From Streptococcus intermedius SK54 = ATCC 27335 (GTDB taxonomy: Bacteria; Bacillota; Bacilli; Lactobacillales; Streptococcaceae): a stretch of DNA of 64,000 nt. Position numbers and translations under genes: made by a program. The stretch covers positions 62,001-126,000 of the forward strand of contig NZ_ATFK01000003.1 in NCBI RefSeq assembly GCF_000413475.1, read 5' to 3'. Under the pieces are notes generated by a model, which did not search any database, was not told the origin of the DNA, and was given only the letters and a program-made list of their open reading frames with translations. Shown piece after piece: positions 44,195 through 54,501 of the stretch; the stretch's first letter is position 1; every line of letters starts with the position of its first letter.

Positions 44195-44219
44195 GTCCCT
44201 GATTAAAAGAAGAGAACAC

Positions 44220-44322
44220 AAAAAGCACCGAATCGGTGCTCCCTTTTTCAAGTTGAGTACGGACTGGATTAAAAATCACTGCCTTATTTTAACTTGCTGT
44301 GTTGTTTCGAATGGTTCCAAAA
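44220..44322 (-). ncRNA. Type II-A tracrRNA without a cas9 locus
   Basis: Read on the minus strand from 44322, the sequence starts GGAACCATTCGAAACAACAC and continues AGCAAGTTAAAATAAGGC, the Cas9 tracrRNA anti-repeat and lower stem. After an extra insert of about 15 nt comes AGTCCGTACTCAACTTGAA (nexus and stem-loop 1). Then follows AGCACCGATTCGGTGCT (stem-loop 2) and TTTTT. The anti-repeat (44296-44322) is a 27-base exact partner to the known GTTTTAGAGCTGTG-type streptococcal II-A repeat. A TATATT-type -10 lies just upstream of 44322 on the minus strand, with TTGTGA as a weak -35. No cas gene or CRISPR array occurs in the window. The orientation, minus strand and divergent from a plus-strand gene, is that of tracrRNA beside cas9. 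Confidence 0.88.
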
Positions 44323-49671: not shown

Positions 49672-49697
49672 AAAAGGTGTCAGTTAGTAGACACCTT
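49672..49697 (-). terminator. fbpA terminator
   Basis: On the minus strand AAGGTGTC-TACTAACT-GACACCTTTTTC forms a hairpin with a T run, beginning at the fbpA stop codon. Confidence 0.85.
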
Positions 49698-51345
49698 ACA
49701 TCTTCATGGATTTAATTTTGACTTCATCAGGAGTAACGCGTAGGGTCTTTTGCCCTGTGTAGGTTACAAAACCAGGTTTACCACCTGTTGGCTTGTTAAG
49801 TTTTTTGACTTCAATCATATCCACCTGAACGAGATTGGACAATCTCGCCTTAGAAAAGTATGCCGCCAATTCCGCAGCATCTGTCTTGACATCATCACTT
49901 GGATGTAGGTTGCCCGTGATAACGACGTGACTACCGGGAATATCCTTGGCATGAAACCAAAGTTCTTCTTTTTTAGCCATTTTAAAGGTCAGCTCATCAT
50001 TTTGCAGATTGTTTCGTCCAACCAGAATAATTGTCTGTCCATCAGTAGACAAATATTTCTCAGGTTTCTTCCGTTTTTGGATTTTTTCACGCTGACGTCG
50101 ACGAATAAAGCCTGTCTGAATCAATTCTTCTCGGATTTCTGTAATTTCTGTGAGATTAGCTTGCGACAAAGCTGTTTCTACGCTCTCCAAATATTGAATG
50201 GTTTCTTTAGTTTCTTCAATCAGTCCCGTTAAATGCTTGACTGCTTCTTTTAGCTTTTGGTATTTCTTAAAATAGCGCTGAGCATTTTGGTTAGGGGTCA
50301 AAGCTTTATCCAACACAATAGTAATTTTCTCGCTTGTGTAGTAATTGTCCAGTTCTACTTGGTCTTGATTGTTGGGAACTTGGTGCAAAAAAGTAGTGAG
50401 GAGTTCTCCCTTTTGTCGAAATTCTTCAGCATTTTCAGTCGCGACCAGTTCTTGCTCTTGTTTCGTTAATTTTTTACGATTCTTTTCTAATTCATTTTCC
50501 ACTCGATGAATCAGTTCACTGGCTTGTTGATTAACGCGATCGCGTTCCGCCTTATCTTGATAGAAAGCATCTAACAATTGTGATAAACTAGGAAATTCTT
50601 TCTGACTATCCGCAAAGAGAATGGGGGTAAATGACTTGCTAGTCAGGGTTGCCTGAGTGGACTTAGCGAAGAAGGCGCGGAAGGTTTTTAACTTATCATT
50701 TGTTAAGCGCTGGCTGAGTTCAGCTGCTGTATCGTGTCCCAATCCTTGAAATAAGTTTTGTAAAGAACGGGCTGACAAATCTTCTGTATGCAGAATTTCA
50801 AATAGCTTTTCATCAGAAATGGTAAAGGGATTGCGCTTATCTGTTTGAGGTGGAGTGACATAGCTTGAACCAGGCAGAATCGTACGGTAACTATTTTGAG
50901 AAAAACCAACATGTTTAATAGCTTCAATAATATTGCCGCTTGCCTTATCCATTAGGATGATATTGCTGTGCTTGCCCATGATTTCGATGATAAGAGTTGC
51001 TGCCACGTTATCTCCGATTTCATTTTTATTGGAGACAGAAATTTCTAAAATTCGGTCATTCTCGATTTGTGAAATGTTTTCAATTGTAGCGCCTTGTAGA
51101 TATTTTCGCATAACCATGATAAATGTAGTGGGCACTGCTGGATTTTCAAAGGCGGTACGGGTTAGTTGAATGCGACTAAAAACAGGGTGAGCAGACAAGA
51201 GCAATTTATAATTTTGTCGATTACTGCGAATTTGTAGCACTAATTCCTGATTAAACGGTTGATTGATTTTTTGAATGCGACCGTACAGTAACTGTTGCCG
51301 CAATTCATCTATCATGTGATGTAAAAAAAATCCGTCAAAGGACAT
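49696..51345 (-). CDS. pavA: PavA/FbpA-type fibronectin-binding protein, Rqc2/RqcH homolog
   Basis: This 549-residue protein has an N-terminal NFACT-N domain (MSFDGFFLHHMIDELRQQL, GRIQKINQPF), a coiled coil and a C-terminal NFACT-R domain (DELWFHAKDIPGSHVVI-type sequence). It is called PavA/FbpA for surface fibronectin binding in streptococci. In Bacillus the homolog RqcH adds Ala tails to stalled peptides. It has no signal peptide or wall anchor, as in other PavA proteins. Both roles are known for the family. Confidence 0.92.
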   Translation of the reverse strand: MSFDGFFLHHMIDELRQQLLYGRIQKINQPFNQELVLQIRSNRQNYKLLLSAHPVFSRIQLTRTAFENPAVPTTFIMVMRKYLQGATIENISQIENDRILEISVSNKNEIGDNVAATLIIEIMGKHSNIILMDKASGNIIEAIKHVGFSQNSYRTILPGSSYVTPPQTDKRNPFTISDEKLFEILHTEDLSARSLQNLFQGLGHDTAAELSQRLTNDKLKTFRAFFAKSTQATLTSKSFTPILFADSQKEFPSLSQLLDAFYQDKAERDRVNQQASELIHRVENELEKNRKKLTKQEQELVATENAEEFRQKGELLTTFLHQVPNNQDQVELDNYYTSEKITIVLDKALTPNQNAQRYFKKYQKLKEAVKHLTGLIEETKETIQYLESVETALSQANLTEITEIREELIQTGFIRRRQREKIQKRKKPEKYLSTDGQTIILVGRNNLQNDELTFKMAKKEELWFHAKDIPGSHVVITGNLHPSDDVKTDAAELAAYFSKARLSNLVQVDMIEVKKLNKPTGGKPGFVTYTGQKTLRVTPDEVKIKSMKM

Positions 51346-51438
51346 GGTGTTTCTCCTTGAATGATACTAAAGAAAATTATAACAAAAAATAGCAAGAAAA
51401 GGTTGAAAAATTATTATCAGAAAAGTTTGACAAAATAC

Positions 51439-51467
51439 TTGACATTTATTTCAGAAACCTCTAAAAT
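51439..51467 (+). promoter_or_regulatory. trpXYZ promoter
   Basis: TTGACA (51439-51444) and TAAAAT (51462-51467) are 17 bases apart, giving a start point near 51474 and a leader of about 355 bases. Confidence 0.75.
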
Positions 51468-51473
51468 AATATC

Positions 51474-51730
51474 AAATTAGAAAAGTAATAAAATGTCTGT
51501 TGGCAGAGAACTTGTGGTTGGTGGAAACAAGTAGCAGGGTTTTATGAAATTGGGCTAATGGATAGAACTTGAATTTGAAACGATAAAAATTCGGTAAGCA
51601 CACCTTATAGTGCAACTTGTTGTTAGACAAGATAGAGATGTAGGAAAAGTGTATGATTTTTCCCATAATTGAGGTGGCACCGCGATTTACGCCCTCACAC
51701 AGGATGAACTGTGTGTGGGTTTTCTTTTAT
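51474..51730 (+). promoter_or_regulatory. T-box riboswitch upstream of trpXYZ
   Basis: The T-box sequence AATTGAGGTGGCACCGCG is at 51667-51684. It is followed by the terminator CCCTCACACAG-GATGAA-CTGTGTGTGGG-TTTTC (51691-51725). The likely specifier is TGG (Trp) at 51522-51524 in the stem I internal loop (GGTGGAAAC). Uncharged tRNA-Trp should stabilise the antiterminator and turn on the Trp transporter. The specifier is inferred from position and the downstream genes. Confidence 0.87.
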
Positions 51731-51760
51731 TGTTTCCGTCTTGTTAAATGGAGGGGAAGT

Positions 51761-51799
51761 ATGTTTAAGCGATGGCGACTCTGGATTTTACTTGAATAA
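51761..51799 (+). CDS. Short Trp-containing leader ORF (12 codons)
   Basis: ATG at 51761 reads MFKRWRLWILLE then TAA. GGAGGGG lies six bases upstream. Two of twelve codons are TGG, placed downstream of the T-box terminator and 31 bases before trpX. It could sense Trp-tRNA by ribosome stalling, as in classic trp leaders. It is too short to show conservation here. It is not in frame with trpX. Confidence 0.5.
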   Translation: MFKRWRLWILLE

Positions 51800-51830
51800 A
51801 CATTTGAAACATACGAAATGGAGAACAGAT

Positions 51831-52835
51831 ATGAAAAATAAACGACTAATGGCAATTATTGCACTTTTAGTAGTCTTAGTTGTTGGAAGAATCATTTATT
51901 CTAGCATTAATGATGGGAAAACAACGAAAATCAACAATACAACAAAAACAGTAAAAGTCGGCGTACTACAATATGTTAGTCATCCATCGCTGGATTTGAT
52001 TTATAAGGGCATTCAAGAAGGCTTGGCCCAAGAAGGCTACAAAGGCAAGAAAATCAAGATTGATTTTATGAATGCAGAAGGTGATCAAAGTAAAGTAGCA
52101 ACGATGAGTAAGCAACTGGTCGCAAATAATAATGATGTGCTGATTGGAATCGCAACGCCTGCTGCTCAGGGGCTAGCTAGTGCAACGAAAGACAAGCCAG
52201 TCGTTATGGGAGCAGTGACCGACCCAGCTGGAGCAAATTTGGTCAAAGATTTGAAACAGCCTGACGGTAATATCACAGGTGTTTCTGATCACAATCCAGC
52301 TAAGCAACAGTTAAATCTGATTAAACAGTTAACACCGAATGTGAAAACAATTGGTATTCTTTACTCAAGTAGTGAGGACAATTCCAAAACGCAGGTAGAA
52401 GAATTTACAACTTTGGCTGAAAAAGCAGGCTATAAGGTGCTTCCTTATTCTGTGCCTTCGACAAATGAGATTGCTTCAACTATGAATGTGATGACAGGGA
52501 AAGTAGACGCCATTTGGATTCCAATTGATAACACCATTGCTTCTGCTTTTTCAACGGTTGTTTCCAGCAACCAAACAGTTAAAAAACCTATCTATCCAAG
52601 CGCGACGGCTATGGTAAAAGAAGGTGGTCTAGGTTCCGTTGTAGTAGATCAAAAAGAACTTGGAGTAGCGACTGGAAAAATGACTGCGAAGATTTTGAAA
52701 GGGGCTAAACCAGCAAGCACAGCGGTTGAAATCTTTACTACTGGAAAAACGGTTATAAATAAAAAAGTGGCTGCTCAGCTAGGAATAACGATTCCAGAAG
52801 ATATTCTGAAAAAAGCAGGACAAGTCATTGAGTAA
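51831..52835 (+). CDS. trpX: Tryptophan ABC transporter substrate-binding protein
   Basis: This 334-residue protein of the TrpX/BMP-like ABC receptor family has an N-terminal hydrophobic helix without a lipobox Cys, so it should be membrane-anchored or cleaved. The conserved VGVLQYVSHPSLDLIYKGIQEG and LGVATGKMTAKIL segments match streptococcal TrpX. The ATG at 51831 is preferred over upstream frames that lie in the T-box. The T-box and gene order (receptor, permease, ATPase) support Trp uptake. Confidence 0.91.
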   Translation: MKNKRLMAIIALLVVLVVGRIIYSSINDGKTTKINNTTKTVKVGVLQYVSHPSLDLIYKGIQEGLAQEGYKGKKIKIDFMNAEGDQSKVATMSKQLVANNNDVLIGIATPAAQGLASATKDKPVVMGAVTDPAGANLVKDLKQPDGNITGVSDHNPAKQQLNLIKQLTPNVKTIGILYSSSEDNSKTQVEEFTTLAEKAGYKVLPYSVPSTNEIASTMNVMTGKVDAIWIPIDNTIASAFSTVVSSNQTVKKPIYPSATAMVKEGGLGSVVVDQKELGVATGKMTAKILKGAKPASTAVEIFTTGKTVINKKVAAQLGITIPEDILKKAGQVIE

Positions 52836-52879: not shown

Positions 52880-53746
52880 ATGATTATTTCAATTGTCTCA
52901 CAAGGCCTTGTTTGGGCCATACTAGGTTTGGGGATTTTTATGACTTTTCGTATTTTAAATTTCCCTGACATGACAACAGAAGGCTCTTTTCCATTAGGTG
53001 GAGCAGTGGCAGTTACGCTGATTAGTAAAGGCATCAATCCCTTTCTGGCGACTGTTGTTGCCATTCTGGCAGGGTGTTTAGCAGGTATGGCAACAGGACT
53101 TCTTTATACCAAGGGGAAAATACCTACTCTACTTTCTGGAATTTTGGTCATGACTTCCTGCCATTCGATTATGCTCATGTTAATGGGGCGAGCTAATCGT
53201 GGTCTTCTCGGAACGAAGCAAATTCAAGATTTTCTCCCATTTTCTAGTGAAATCAACAATCTTCTAACAGGGCTACTTTTTGTCAGTTTGGTAATAGCTG
53301 CACTGCTCTTTTTCTTAGATACAAAATTGGGTCAAGCTTATATTGCTACAGGAGATAATCCTGATATGGCGAGGAGTTTTGGCATTCACACAGGGCGAAT
53401 GGAGCTGATGGGGTTGGTGCTATCTAATGGTGTTATTGCTCTAGCTGGAGCCCTCATTGCTCAGCAGGAAGGTTATGCGGATGTCTCGCGCGGTATTGGA
53501 GTGATTGTTGTCGGACTTGCTAGCCTCATCATTGGCGAGGTGCTCTTTATTAGTCTGACATTAGCAGAACGTTTACTAACGATTGTTGTCGGAGCTATTT
53601 TCTATCAATTTCTGATTTGGGGTGTGATTGCACTTGGTTTTAATACCAGTTATCTCCGTCTGTATAGTGCGGTTATCTTGGCGGTTTGCCTCATGATTCC
53701 GGCTTTTAAAAATAAATTCTTTAAAGGAGTCAAGTTAAGCAAATGA
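52880..53746 (+). CDS. trpY: Tryptophan ABC transporter permease
   Basis: This 288-residue permease has about eight hydrophobic segments and the branched-chain-permease-type motifs FRILNFPDMTTEGSFPLGGAVAV and GDNPDMARSFGI. It is the membrane channel of TrpXYZ. The 3' end overlaps trpZ by four bases. Confidence 0.9.
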   Translation: MIISIVSQGLVWAILGLGIFMTFRILNFPDMTTEGSFPLGGAVAVTLISKGINPFLATVVAILAGCLAGMATGLLYTKGKIPTLLSGILVMTSCHSIMLMLMGRANRGLLGTKQIQDFLPFSSEINNLLTGLLFVSLVIAALLFFLDTKLGQAYIATGDNPDMARSFGIHTGRMELMGLVLSNGVIALAGALIAQQEGYADVSRGIGVIVVGLASLIIGEVLFISLTLAERLLTIVVGAIFYQFLIWGVIALGFNTSYLRLYSAVILAVCLMIPAFKNKFFKGVKLSK

Positions 53747-54501
53747 CAGCAATTGTAGAATTGAAAAATGCAACAAAAATTGTCGATATAGGTGTTGAGG
53801 AAGAAAAAATCATTTTGAATGACATTTCGTTGGATATTTTTGAGCATGACTTCATTACCATTTTAGGTGGAAATGGTGCAGGGAAATCCACTCTTTTCAA
53901 CGTTATTGCGGGTACATTACCATTAACAAGTGGGGACATTTATATTCTAGGTGAAAATGTGACGAGTTATTCGCCAGAGAAACGCGCTAAGTATCTGTCA
54001 CGTGTCTTTCAAGATCCAAAAATGGGAACAGCTCCTCGTATGACAGTGGCAGAGAATCTGTTAATTGCAAAATTTCGTGGTGAAAAGCGTCGTTTGGTCC
54101 CACGTTGTCTGAAGCGTTATCGCAAAGAATTTCAAGAAATAATAGAGAAAATTGGCAATGGTTTAGAAAAACATTTGGATACGCCAATTGAATTTCTTTC
54201 TGGTGGTCAGAGACAGGCTTTGAGTTTGCTGATGGCGACTCTCAAGCGCCCAGAACTGCTTCTTCTAGACGAACATACAGCAGCGCTGGATCCAAAAACT
54301 AGTGTTGCCCTTATGGAGTTGACTGCTGATTTTGTCCAAAGAGACCAACTGACGGCTCTTATGATTACTCATCACATGGAGGATGCGCTCAAATATGGCA
54401 ATCGTCTCATTGTCATGAAGGAGGGACAGATCATCTTAGACCTTAAGCAGAAAGAAAAAGCCAAGATGACCATAGCAGATTATTATGGTTTGTTTGAATA
54501 A
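53743..54501 (+). CDS. trpZ: Tryptophan ABC transporter ATP-binding protein
   Basis: This 252-residue ATPase has Walker A GGNGAGKST, signature LSGGQRQALS and Walker B ELLLLDEHTAALD with switch His in MITHHMED. It drives the TrpXYZ importer. A bidirectional terminator follows. Confidence 0.92.
   Translation: MTAIVELKNATKIVDIGVEEEKIILNDISLDIFEHDFITILGGNGAGKSTLFNVIAGTLPLTSGDIYILGENVTSYSPEKRAKYLSRVFQDPKMGTAPRMTVAENLLIAKFRGEKRRLVPRCLKRYRKEFQEIIEKIGNGLEKHLDTPIEFLSGGQRQALSLLMATLKRPELLLLDEHTAALDPKTSVALMELTADFVQRDQLTALMITHHMEDALKYGNRLIVMKEGQIILDLKQKEKAKMTIADYYGLFE

Follow-up and report, generated by a model that had tools for sequence, protein, structure and literature searches.

A conserved Trp-codon leader reading frame between a tryptophan T-box and trpX in Streptococcus, a possible second layer of tryptophan sensing

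The window analyzed here is a stretch of 64,000 nucleotides (nt) from Streptococcus intermedius SK54 = ATCC 27335 (contig NZ_ATFK01000003.1, positions 62,001 to 126,000). It contains the tryptophan (Trp) transporter gene trpX, a T-box upstream of it, and a mini open reading frame (ORF), here called the leader ORF, between the two (Table 1). The first-pass annotation of this DNA had claimed a 12-codon ORF with a strong Shine-Dalgarno (SD) sequence, placed behind a Trp T-box and ahead of trpX. The ORF and its SD were found exactly as claimed, and the position was borne out by an Rfam T-box match with a UGG specifier and by a TrpX model match. The leader ORF was conserved at most of the streptococcal trpX loci with a T-box motif, and it may serve as a second, ribosome-based sensor of Trp.

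Table 1. Features of the trpX locus in the window. ABC, ATP-binding cassette; tRNA, transfer RNA.
Feature	Coordinates	Strand	Evidence and remarks
Sigma-70-like promoter, TTGACA-17-TAAAAT	51439..51467	+	11/12 consensus bases; consensus match only, shuffles average 2.1
T-box leader, RF00230	51463..51699	+	Rfam covariance model, 100.6 bits against a gathering score of 93
Specifier triplet UGG (Trp)	51551..51553	+	Read off the model alignment and the sequence
T-box motif GGTGGCACCGCG	51673..51684	+	UGGC pairing with the tRNA 3' end at 51675-51678
T-box intrinsic terminator, hairpin and T-rich tail	51691..51730	+	Stem 51696-51715; terminator scan and fold
Leader ORF SD, GGAGGGG	51750..51756	+	Sequence
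Leader ORF, MFKRWRLWILLE and stop	51761..51799	+	Sequence; same-core mini-ORFs in 92/98 trpX regions with T-box motif
Conserved core AAG-CGA-TGG-C (Lys-Arg-Trp and first base of next codon)	51767..51776	+	Comparison of leaders
Conserved Trp codon	51773..51775	+	TGG in 50/50 distinct leaders (core required for counting)
Second Trp codon	51782..51784	+	This context only in the window's closest relatives
trpX SD, GGAGA	51820..51824	+	20 nt past the leader stop
trpX, tryptophan ABC transporter substrate-binding protein	51831..52835	+	NCBIfam ABC_SBP_TrpX NF041285, 463.8 bits against a cut-off of 390
trpY-like ABC permease	52880..53746	+	Permease models only, all below cut-offs; named by position and S. 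suis trpXYZ (PMC9382623)
trpZ-like ABC ATPase	53743..54501	+	ATPase models, those displayed below cut-offs; named by position

The T-box specifier is a Trp codon, which fits the gene downstream, a component of a Trp transporter. The UGGC of the T-box motif is known to pair with the 3' end of the tRNA. In the window, 61 bases separate the end of the T-box match from the leader ORF, and 31 bases separate the leader stop from the trpX ATG. The leader ORF reads ATG TTT AAG CGA TGG CGA CTC TGG ATT TTA CTT GAA TAA. Of the 49 ORFs of 6-20 codons in the 64 kb that begin with an SD-preceded ATG (33 on the plus strand and 16 on the minus strand), it was the only one with at least two Trp codons. The trpX product matched PDB entry 3lft (E value 7e-146), and the nearest named TrpX was that of S. 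anginosus J4206, 91% identical, with records very near the window possibly excluded. The same operon with a Trp T-box, likewise with a UGG specifier, is described for S. suis trpXYZ in the accessible part of PMC9382623. The core of the leader ORF also holds an out-of-frame ATG-GC, and short overlapping frames such as MATLDFT lie within 51772-51795. This ATG-GC was rejected as a start because no SD was seen by eye at the proper distance.

A trpX homologue was present in 194 of the 197 genomes of the genus. The 110 upstream regions compared (30 + 80 loci) were part of the matches listed and included distant homologues of less than 60% identity. A leader was counted when an in-frame mini-ORF with the core (K/R)RW(R/H) began with ATG, GTG, or TTG, and the SD was used for ranking only. 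The T-box motif was present in 98 of the 110 regions; 92 of these had a leader and six had none, and all 12 regions without the motif were without a leader, i.e., no leader stood without the motif. Under a strict rule requiring both ATG and SD, the core ORF was found in 80 of the 98 regions, versus 2 of 9800 dinucleotide shuffles. Judged by this comparison of sequences, the leader ORF is not a chance occurrence.

The common forms of the leader were MFKRWRP, MKKRWRLSL, MEIKRWRRLNK, MERKRWRRLFR, MKKRWRL, MKRWRSKK, and MKRWRWWNSILMM; S. pseudopneumoniae (L166) has MEIKRWRRLNK. The C-terminus varied in both length and sequence, and the fixed part was start-proximal, i.e., the start, a few codons, and CGA-UGG-C. 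Two Trp codons had been claimed at first, and this is true of the window ORF. It does not hold in general, where a single Arg-Trp core is the rule and additional Trp codons were found in 12 of the 92 leaders, i.e., L001-L003 and L026 (KRWRLW), six of the MKRWRWW kind, L107, and L109. The KRWRLW context was shared only by the window and the three sequences nearest to it (L002, L003, and L026). Conservation across streptococci had been named as a check; the ORF is indeed kept in frame and with one Trp codon through much of the genus and beyond. The leader was carried by S. sanguinis, S. cristatus, S. gordonii, S. australis, S. pseudopneumoniae, S. infantis, and S. azizii, and also by S. oralis with a TTG start. 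It was not seen in S. massiliensis, where the T-box motif was present, or in S. devriesei and S. ratti, both without the motif.

A frame-blind search for bare CGATGG behind the T-box gave 102 non-redundant sites. These include six second copies inside MKRWRWW-type leaders, and they are not independent cases because many come from related genomes. An SD-preceded in-frame ATG, with no stop between, was found for 95 of the 102 sites, at eight different distances from CGATGG (6, 9, 12, 15, 18, 21, 24, and 27 nt). Six of the seven exceptions had an in-frame TTG start, and the other was an unrelated site. The frame, the start, the Trp codon, and the linkage to a Trp T-box are conserved, and the leader ORF is taken here to be translated.

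The codons around Trp were compared in 50 distinct streptococcal leaders. The codon before Trp was CGA in 49 and CGT in one, and the codon after Trp was CGT in 27, CGA in 15, CAT in seven, and CGC in one. In the 15 leaders of the trpD set described below, CGA preceded Trp in 13 and CGG in two (L260 and L261), and the codon after Trp was CAA, CAG, CGA, CGG, or CCA. The first base after the conserved UGG was therefore C throughout, while the residue was R, H, Q, or P. The synonymous AGA and AGG were absent at Arg on either side of Trp in both the streptococcal and the trpD-set leaders. In the background, which was taken from mechanically found open frames, CGA made up 12 to 20% of Arg codons, and TGG was followed by C in 24 of 156 cases in the window. 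CGA-UGG-C thus appears to be kept more strictly than the peptide requires. According to a 1995 report attributed to Curran, CGA may slow decoding.

The same pair was also found before other genes. In a pattern search of the genus, 104 of 197 genomes matched, and eight stretches (L191-L198) were chosen for reading. The T-box and a KRWR leader stood ahead of a lone trpB in L191, L192, L194, and L195, and the two genes tested (L191 and L194) scored over the TIGR00263 cut-off. L193 was a trpX locus with the leader, and the matches in L196 and L198 were chance occurrences at other genes. The lone trpB of L192 looks frameshifted near its start. In L197, the T-box and a MKKTNTKRWRLMKI leader were followed by a gene that an IS110-like element appears to interrupt soon after the start.

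Wider searches used exact patterns with fixed spacing, by which variants are missed. In the class, searched for spread beyond the order, 15 of 348 genomes matched, i.e., 13 in the window's genus and two others (G916 and G990), whose matches were judged from their letters to be chance. In the order, the 56 matches among 385 genomes comprised 49 of the window's genus, six of family f9, and one of family f4; G446 (f4) and G501 (f9) were not T-box-like from their letters. The genomes of family f9 were taken to be Lactobacillaceae. The pattern of a T-box with AARCGNTGGC was matched in 31 of 301 genomes of this family, in 12 of 40 genera; at least one of these 31 (G501) was not a T-box. All 21 Lactobacillaceae-type loci read (20 and L032) had an in-frame ATG and an SD under a lenient rule, in a set that is biased by the search pattern. 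The gene after the leader was trpD in L239, over the model cut-off. In L247 and L251 the best model was trpE_most, below its cut-off, and in L244, L249, and L256 the gene matched SBP_bac_5, with OppA as the best NCBIfam model for L244 and L249, below cut-off. The remaining following genes were named by resemblance. The trpE-like genes of family f9 with a KRW leader behind a T-box (L247, L251-L253, and L255) are unlike streptococcal trpE.

An unbiased set was formed by 30 trpD loci. A T-box lay within 450 nt upstream at 16 of them, and 15 of these had the leader, L264 being the one without. In L262, the leader stood behind a T-box 1.4 kb upstream. No T-box motif was present at five of the 30 loci.

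The leader is not a general habit of T-boxes. The window's genome had eight T-box matches, two over the cut-off, and no such mini-ORF was found behind the other seven. One of the seven was followed by an unrelated 22-codon ORF, and in two (L201 and L204) the stretch examined was delimited at its start by position instead of the motif.

We propose, with a probability of roughly 0.55, that the locus is a two-layer Trp sensor, in which the T-box is followed by ribosome-based sensing of Trp-tRNA on the leader ORF. In the first layer, the T-box would let RNA polymerase pass only with uncharged tRNA-Trp. This layer was proven experimentally with reporters for S. suis trpX (accessible part of PMC9382623). 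In the second layer, a ribosome would load at the leader SD past the T-box terminator and reach CGA-UGG-C after a few codons. When Trp-tRNA is short, this ribosome would pause with UGG in the A site. The paused ribosome would be a second cis signal, raising the output of the messenger RNA (mRNA) that was read through. Of the possible routes, the favored one is that the stalled ribosome shields the mRNA against degradation in the 5'-to-3' direction, a route that has been proposed for erm leaders. This protection, suggested by analogy, is the least secure step. For ermB, leader-ORF stalling and mRNA stabilization are believed to act together, according to the accessible part of PMC9178857. The erm signal is a macrolide, whereas here it would be Trp-tRNA. 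In S. pneumoniae, decay of the trp-operon T-box RNA involves RNase Y and PNPase (accessible part of PMC8546594). In bacteria with T-box and leader, tryptophan supply would probably be tested at two points, the second being the ribosome. The second Trp-sensing layer assumed in the first-pass annotation is in this respect partly supported; translation, stalling, and the direction and route of the effect are inferred.

A second Trp layer in tandem with a T-box had also been called unusual. It is unusual, but a precedent exists in Bacillus subtilis rtpA, which combines T-box antitermination with tRNA-dependent ribosome stalling (accessible part of PMC11255114, citing Chen and Yanofsky 2003, 2004). 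The rtpA system belongs to another bacterial order and to other genes. By analogy it is a precedent in principle, as it reportedly has the same succession of Trp T-box, Trp-codon leader peptide, and regulated gene. Its leader, rtpLP, is said to have three consecutive Trp codons and a stop adjacent to the next gene's SD. Three consecutive Trp codons were absent here; the window has two separated ones, most relatives have one, and six relatives have RWRWW. The general feature is one Trp codon in the KRW core, and the leader stop is not at the next SD, which is 20 nt away in the window. The present leaders are considered a variant rather than members of the rtpA type, because the principle is shared but the features of geometry and codon number fail.

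Several points weigh against the two-layer sensor. One Trp codon makes a weak sensor next to the three reported for rtpA. Six trpX regions with a T-box had no leader (L105, L110, L125, L128, L135, and L139). In the trpD set, all eight T-boxes ahead of a trpB-like first gene (the L272 gene was tested) were without such a leader, and the 30 streptococcal trpE loci read all had the T-box motif upstream and none had a KRW leader. A Trp T-box does not need the leader, because these trpE and trpB-first T-boxes are without it, and the trpE loci exclude a general habit of all Trp T-boxes. A search for any RW mini-ORF at the 30 trpE loci gave two matches (L225 and L232), both LRWHR, which were read as the T-box motif itself in translation. 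The argument from the constant C is weaker at the trpD loci because C after TGG is common there (23 of 52). CGA codons were no impediment to lacZ translation in B. subtilis (accessible part of PMC10454642), which speaks against CGA as a slow codon. A title cited in PMC9178857 holds that the stability of erm mRNA does not depend on stalling. Deleting the whole T-box from an S. suis reporter made it constitutive, with less green fluorescent protein at low Trp (accessible part of PMC9382623). If the construct kept the leader, this speaks against strong induction by the leader. In the literature, no result from ribosome profiling or reporters was found for the leader ORF, and the accessible part of an S. 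pneumoniae Ribo-RET paper (PMC9426450) does not mention it.

The geometry of the leaders was variable. From leader stop to trpX ATG, the distance over the 92 loci was -4 to 172 nt, with two overlaps, 12 loci at 21-35 nt, 68 at 36-60 nt, and 10 above 60 nt, i.e., 62 to 172 nt. From leader stop to trpX SD, it was 13 to 161 nt among the regions kept, regions whose SD search fell before the leader stop having been dropped. The T-box motif was 81 to 307 nt away from UGG. Given such wide variation in stop position and in distance to the gene, the output is most likely independent of a fixed RNA fold or of ribosome occlusion. Such a signal, independent of geometry, points to an effect such as mRNA protection by the stalled ribosome. 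Long extra stretches, possibly insertion or repeat elements, were seen between leader and trpX in L069, L076, L079, L093, and L094, and between terminator and leader in L115, L124, and L130, with the core intact.

Relief of interference, similar to rtpA, was considered as an alternative. Ribosomes finishing the leader would block initiation at the next gene, and a stall at UGG would free it. Lactobacillaceae-type leaders are in line with this idea, since they often overlap or end near the next start, with gaps of -107 to +40 over the 21 loci, and the gaps were -53 to +71 over 15 trpD loci, with trpD starts assigned by a simple rule. The streptococcal stops, however, mostly lie 36 to 60 nt (68 of 92) or 62 to 172 nt (10 of 92) before the trpX ATG, which by the usual ribosome footprint sizes is too far to cover the SD. 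Relief of interference is regarded as unlikely.

It is also conceivable that CGAUGGC, or a longer motif, acts as an RNA element that binds something, e.g., the GCCA end of tRNA-Trp, and that the ORF is a by-product. The constant C after UGG despite four different residues, the lack of AGA and AGG at either Arg, and the identity of the core's UGGC with the T-box bulge sequence would suit such an element. However, the motif keeps the reading frame of a start that has an SD before it, at eight different spacings, and CGT or CGG replaces CGA in L117, L260, and L261. In addition, no shared fold was found around the core, which was unpaired at 0.43, versus 0.50 for the segment (92 regions). An RNA element in place of a translated leader is quite improbable.

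A function of the peptide itself, with the KRW core acting in trans or as a nascent-chain arrest peptide, was judged very improbable. Trp leader peptides with peptide functions are known, e.g., TnaC and S. meliloti peTrpL, and the basic residues around the single Trp are kept here. However, the length ranges from 7 to more than 40 residues with a free C-terminus, and the residue after Trp varies among R, H, Q, and P, whereas its first base does not.

No second terminator-like site was found in 51380-51900, and the sole terminator was that of the T-box, upstream of the ORF. In the minimum free energy fold of the window, the leader flank pairs with the trpX SD region (z -1.67). SD accessibility was modelled with 86 distinct regions entered, and the trpX SD was mostly unpaired in every state, with means of 0.73 when free, 0.70 with a stalled ribosome, 0.71 with a ribosome at the stop, and 0.66 at initiation. 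The idea that the leader region sequesters the trpX SD was rejected, as no consistent change with ribosome position appeared. Visual inspection of the window and of S. sanguinis-type sequences suggested a duplex of 51760-51766 with 51807-51813, which was also rejected; it is missing in, e.g., L018 and L002. Because no second terminator, no consistent SD hiding, and no fixed stop-to-start spacing were found, the leaders fit neither attenuation of the E. coli type nor the geometry of rtpA. Like them, E. coli trpL reportedly has a leader peptide with a Trp codon ahead of a Trp gene; it differs in that no terminator-like site follows the leader here.

Classical attenuation, in which stalling on the leader would switch a downstream terminator or a helix hiding the trpX SD, was the least probable of all. 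In its favor are a leader ORF with a Trp codon ahead of a Trp gene and the pairing in the window fold. Against it, the window shows no further terminator-like site from the leader to trpX, the trpX SD is mostly open in all states, and long extra stretches are tolerated on either side. An antimicrobial-like Arg/Trp peptide was discarded, given the free C-terminus and codons that are better conserved than the peptide they encode, and a paper on A-to-I editing in S. pyogenes had no bearing on the leader.

The two-layer sensor can be stated in a wider form for the Lactobacillales. The start-proximal CGA-UGG-C would be tuned at the nucleotide level for stalling when Trp-tRNA is low, and the widespread tandem sensor would act on mRNA decay, not on RNA folding, at any distance and behind the T-boxes of various Trp genes (trpX, trpB, trpD, trpE-like, and OppA-like). 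This wider form is tentative and rather improbable. T-boxes are usually treated as complete switches. If the two-layer sensor is true, T-box read-through is not the last checkpoint in many streptococci and Lactobacillaceae-type genomes. It would also raise a testable question, i.e., whether a single codon in a chosen context can be an amino-acid sensor without a partner RNA structure. The leader sits in a stretch upstream of trpX that the S. suis study described as a non-coding leader sequence, with no leader ORF named in the accessible part (PMC9382623); S. suis strain 10 was absent from the named loci compared. No leader ORF between a Trp T-box and trpX was found in the literature, most subscription papers lying outside the coverage, so this is no proof of absence.

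Because trpE_most had no match in its genome (G000), the window's organism in particular may be limited by tryptophan supply. The missing match suggests tryptophan auxotrophy.

At trpX loci without a T-box motif, other upstream elements were observed. The Rfam trpB motif RF04312 preceded trpX at L182 (797-897), above the gathering score, and at L122 (103-205, minus strand) and L177 (1031-1127), below it. Another region stood ahead of the T-box-less trpX homologue in L178-L180. Trp-containing mini-ORFs were seen both there and at the RF04312 loci, and their endings were WQSWRR, WQNWRK, WQTWRR, and TWQSR. RF04312 resembles the present leaders in a Trp-containing ORF with UGG followed by C, and it differs in peptides that end in WQSWRR, WQNWRK, or WQTWRR. 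In the window, it had no match at the gathering score in 40000-64000. The motif may be a ribosome-mediated Trp leader.

Of the neighboring features, the divergent gene at 49696-51345 (minus strand) is of the EfbA/RqcH type, below the curated cut-offs of both models. A trans-activating CRISPR RNA (tracrRNA; CRISPR, clustered regularly interspaced short palindromic repeats) was found at 44218-44322 (minus strand), with 90.3 bits against a gathering score of 70, and it points to a type II CRISPR system.
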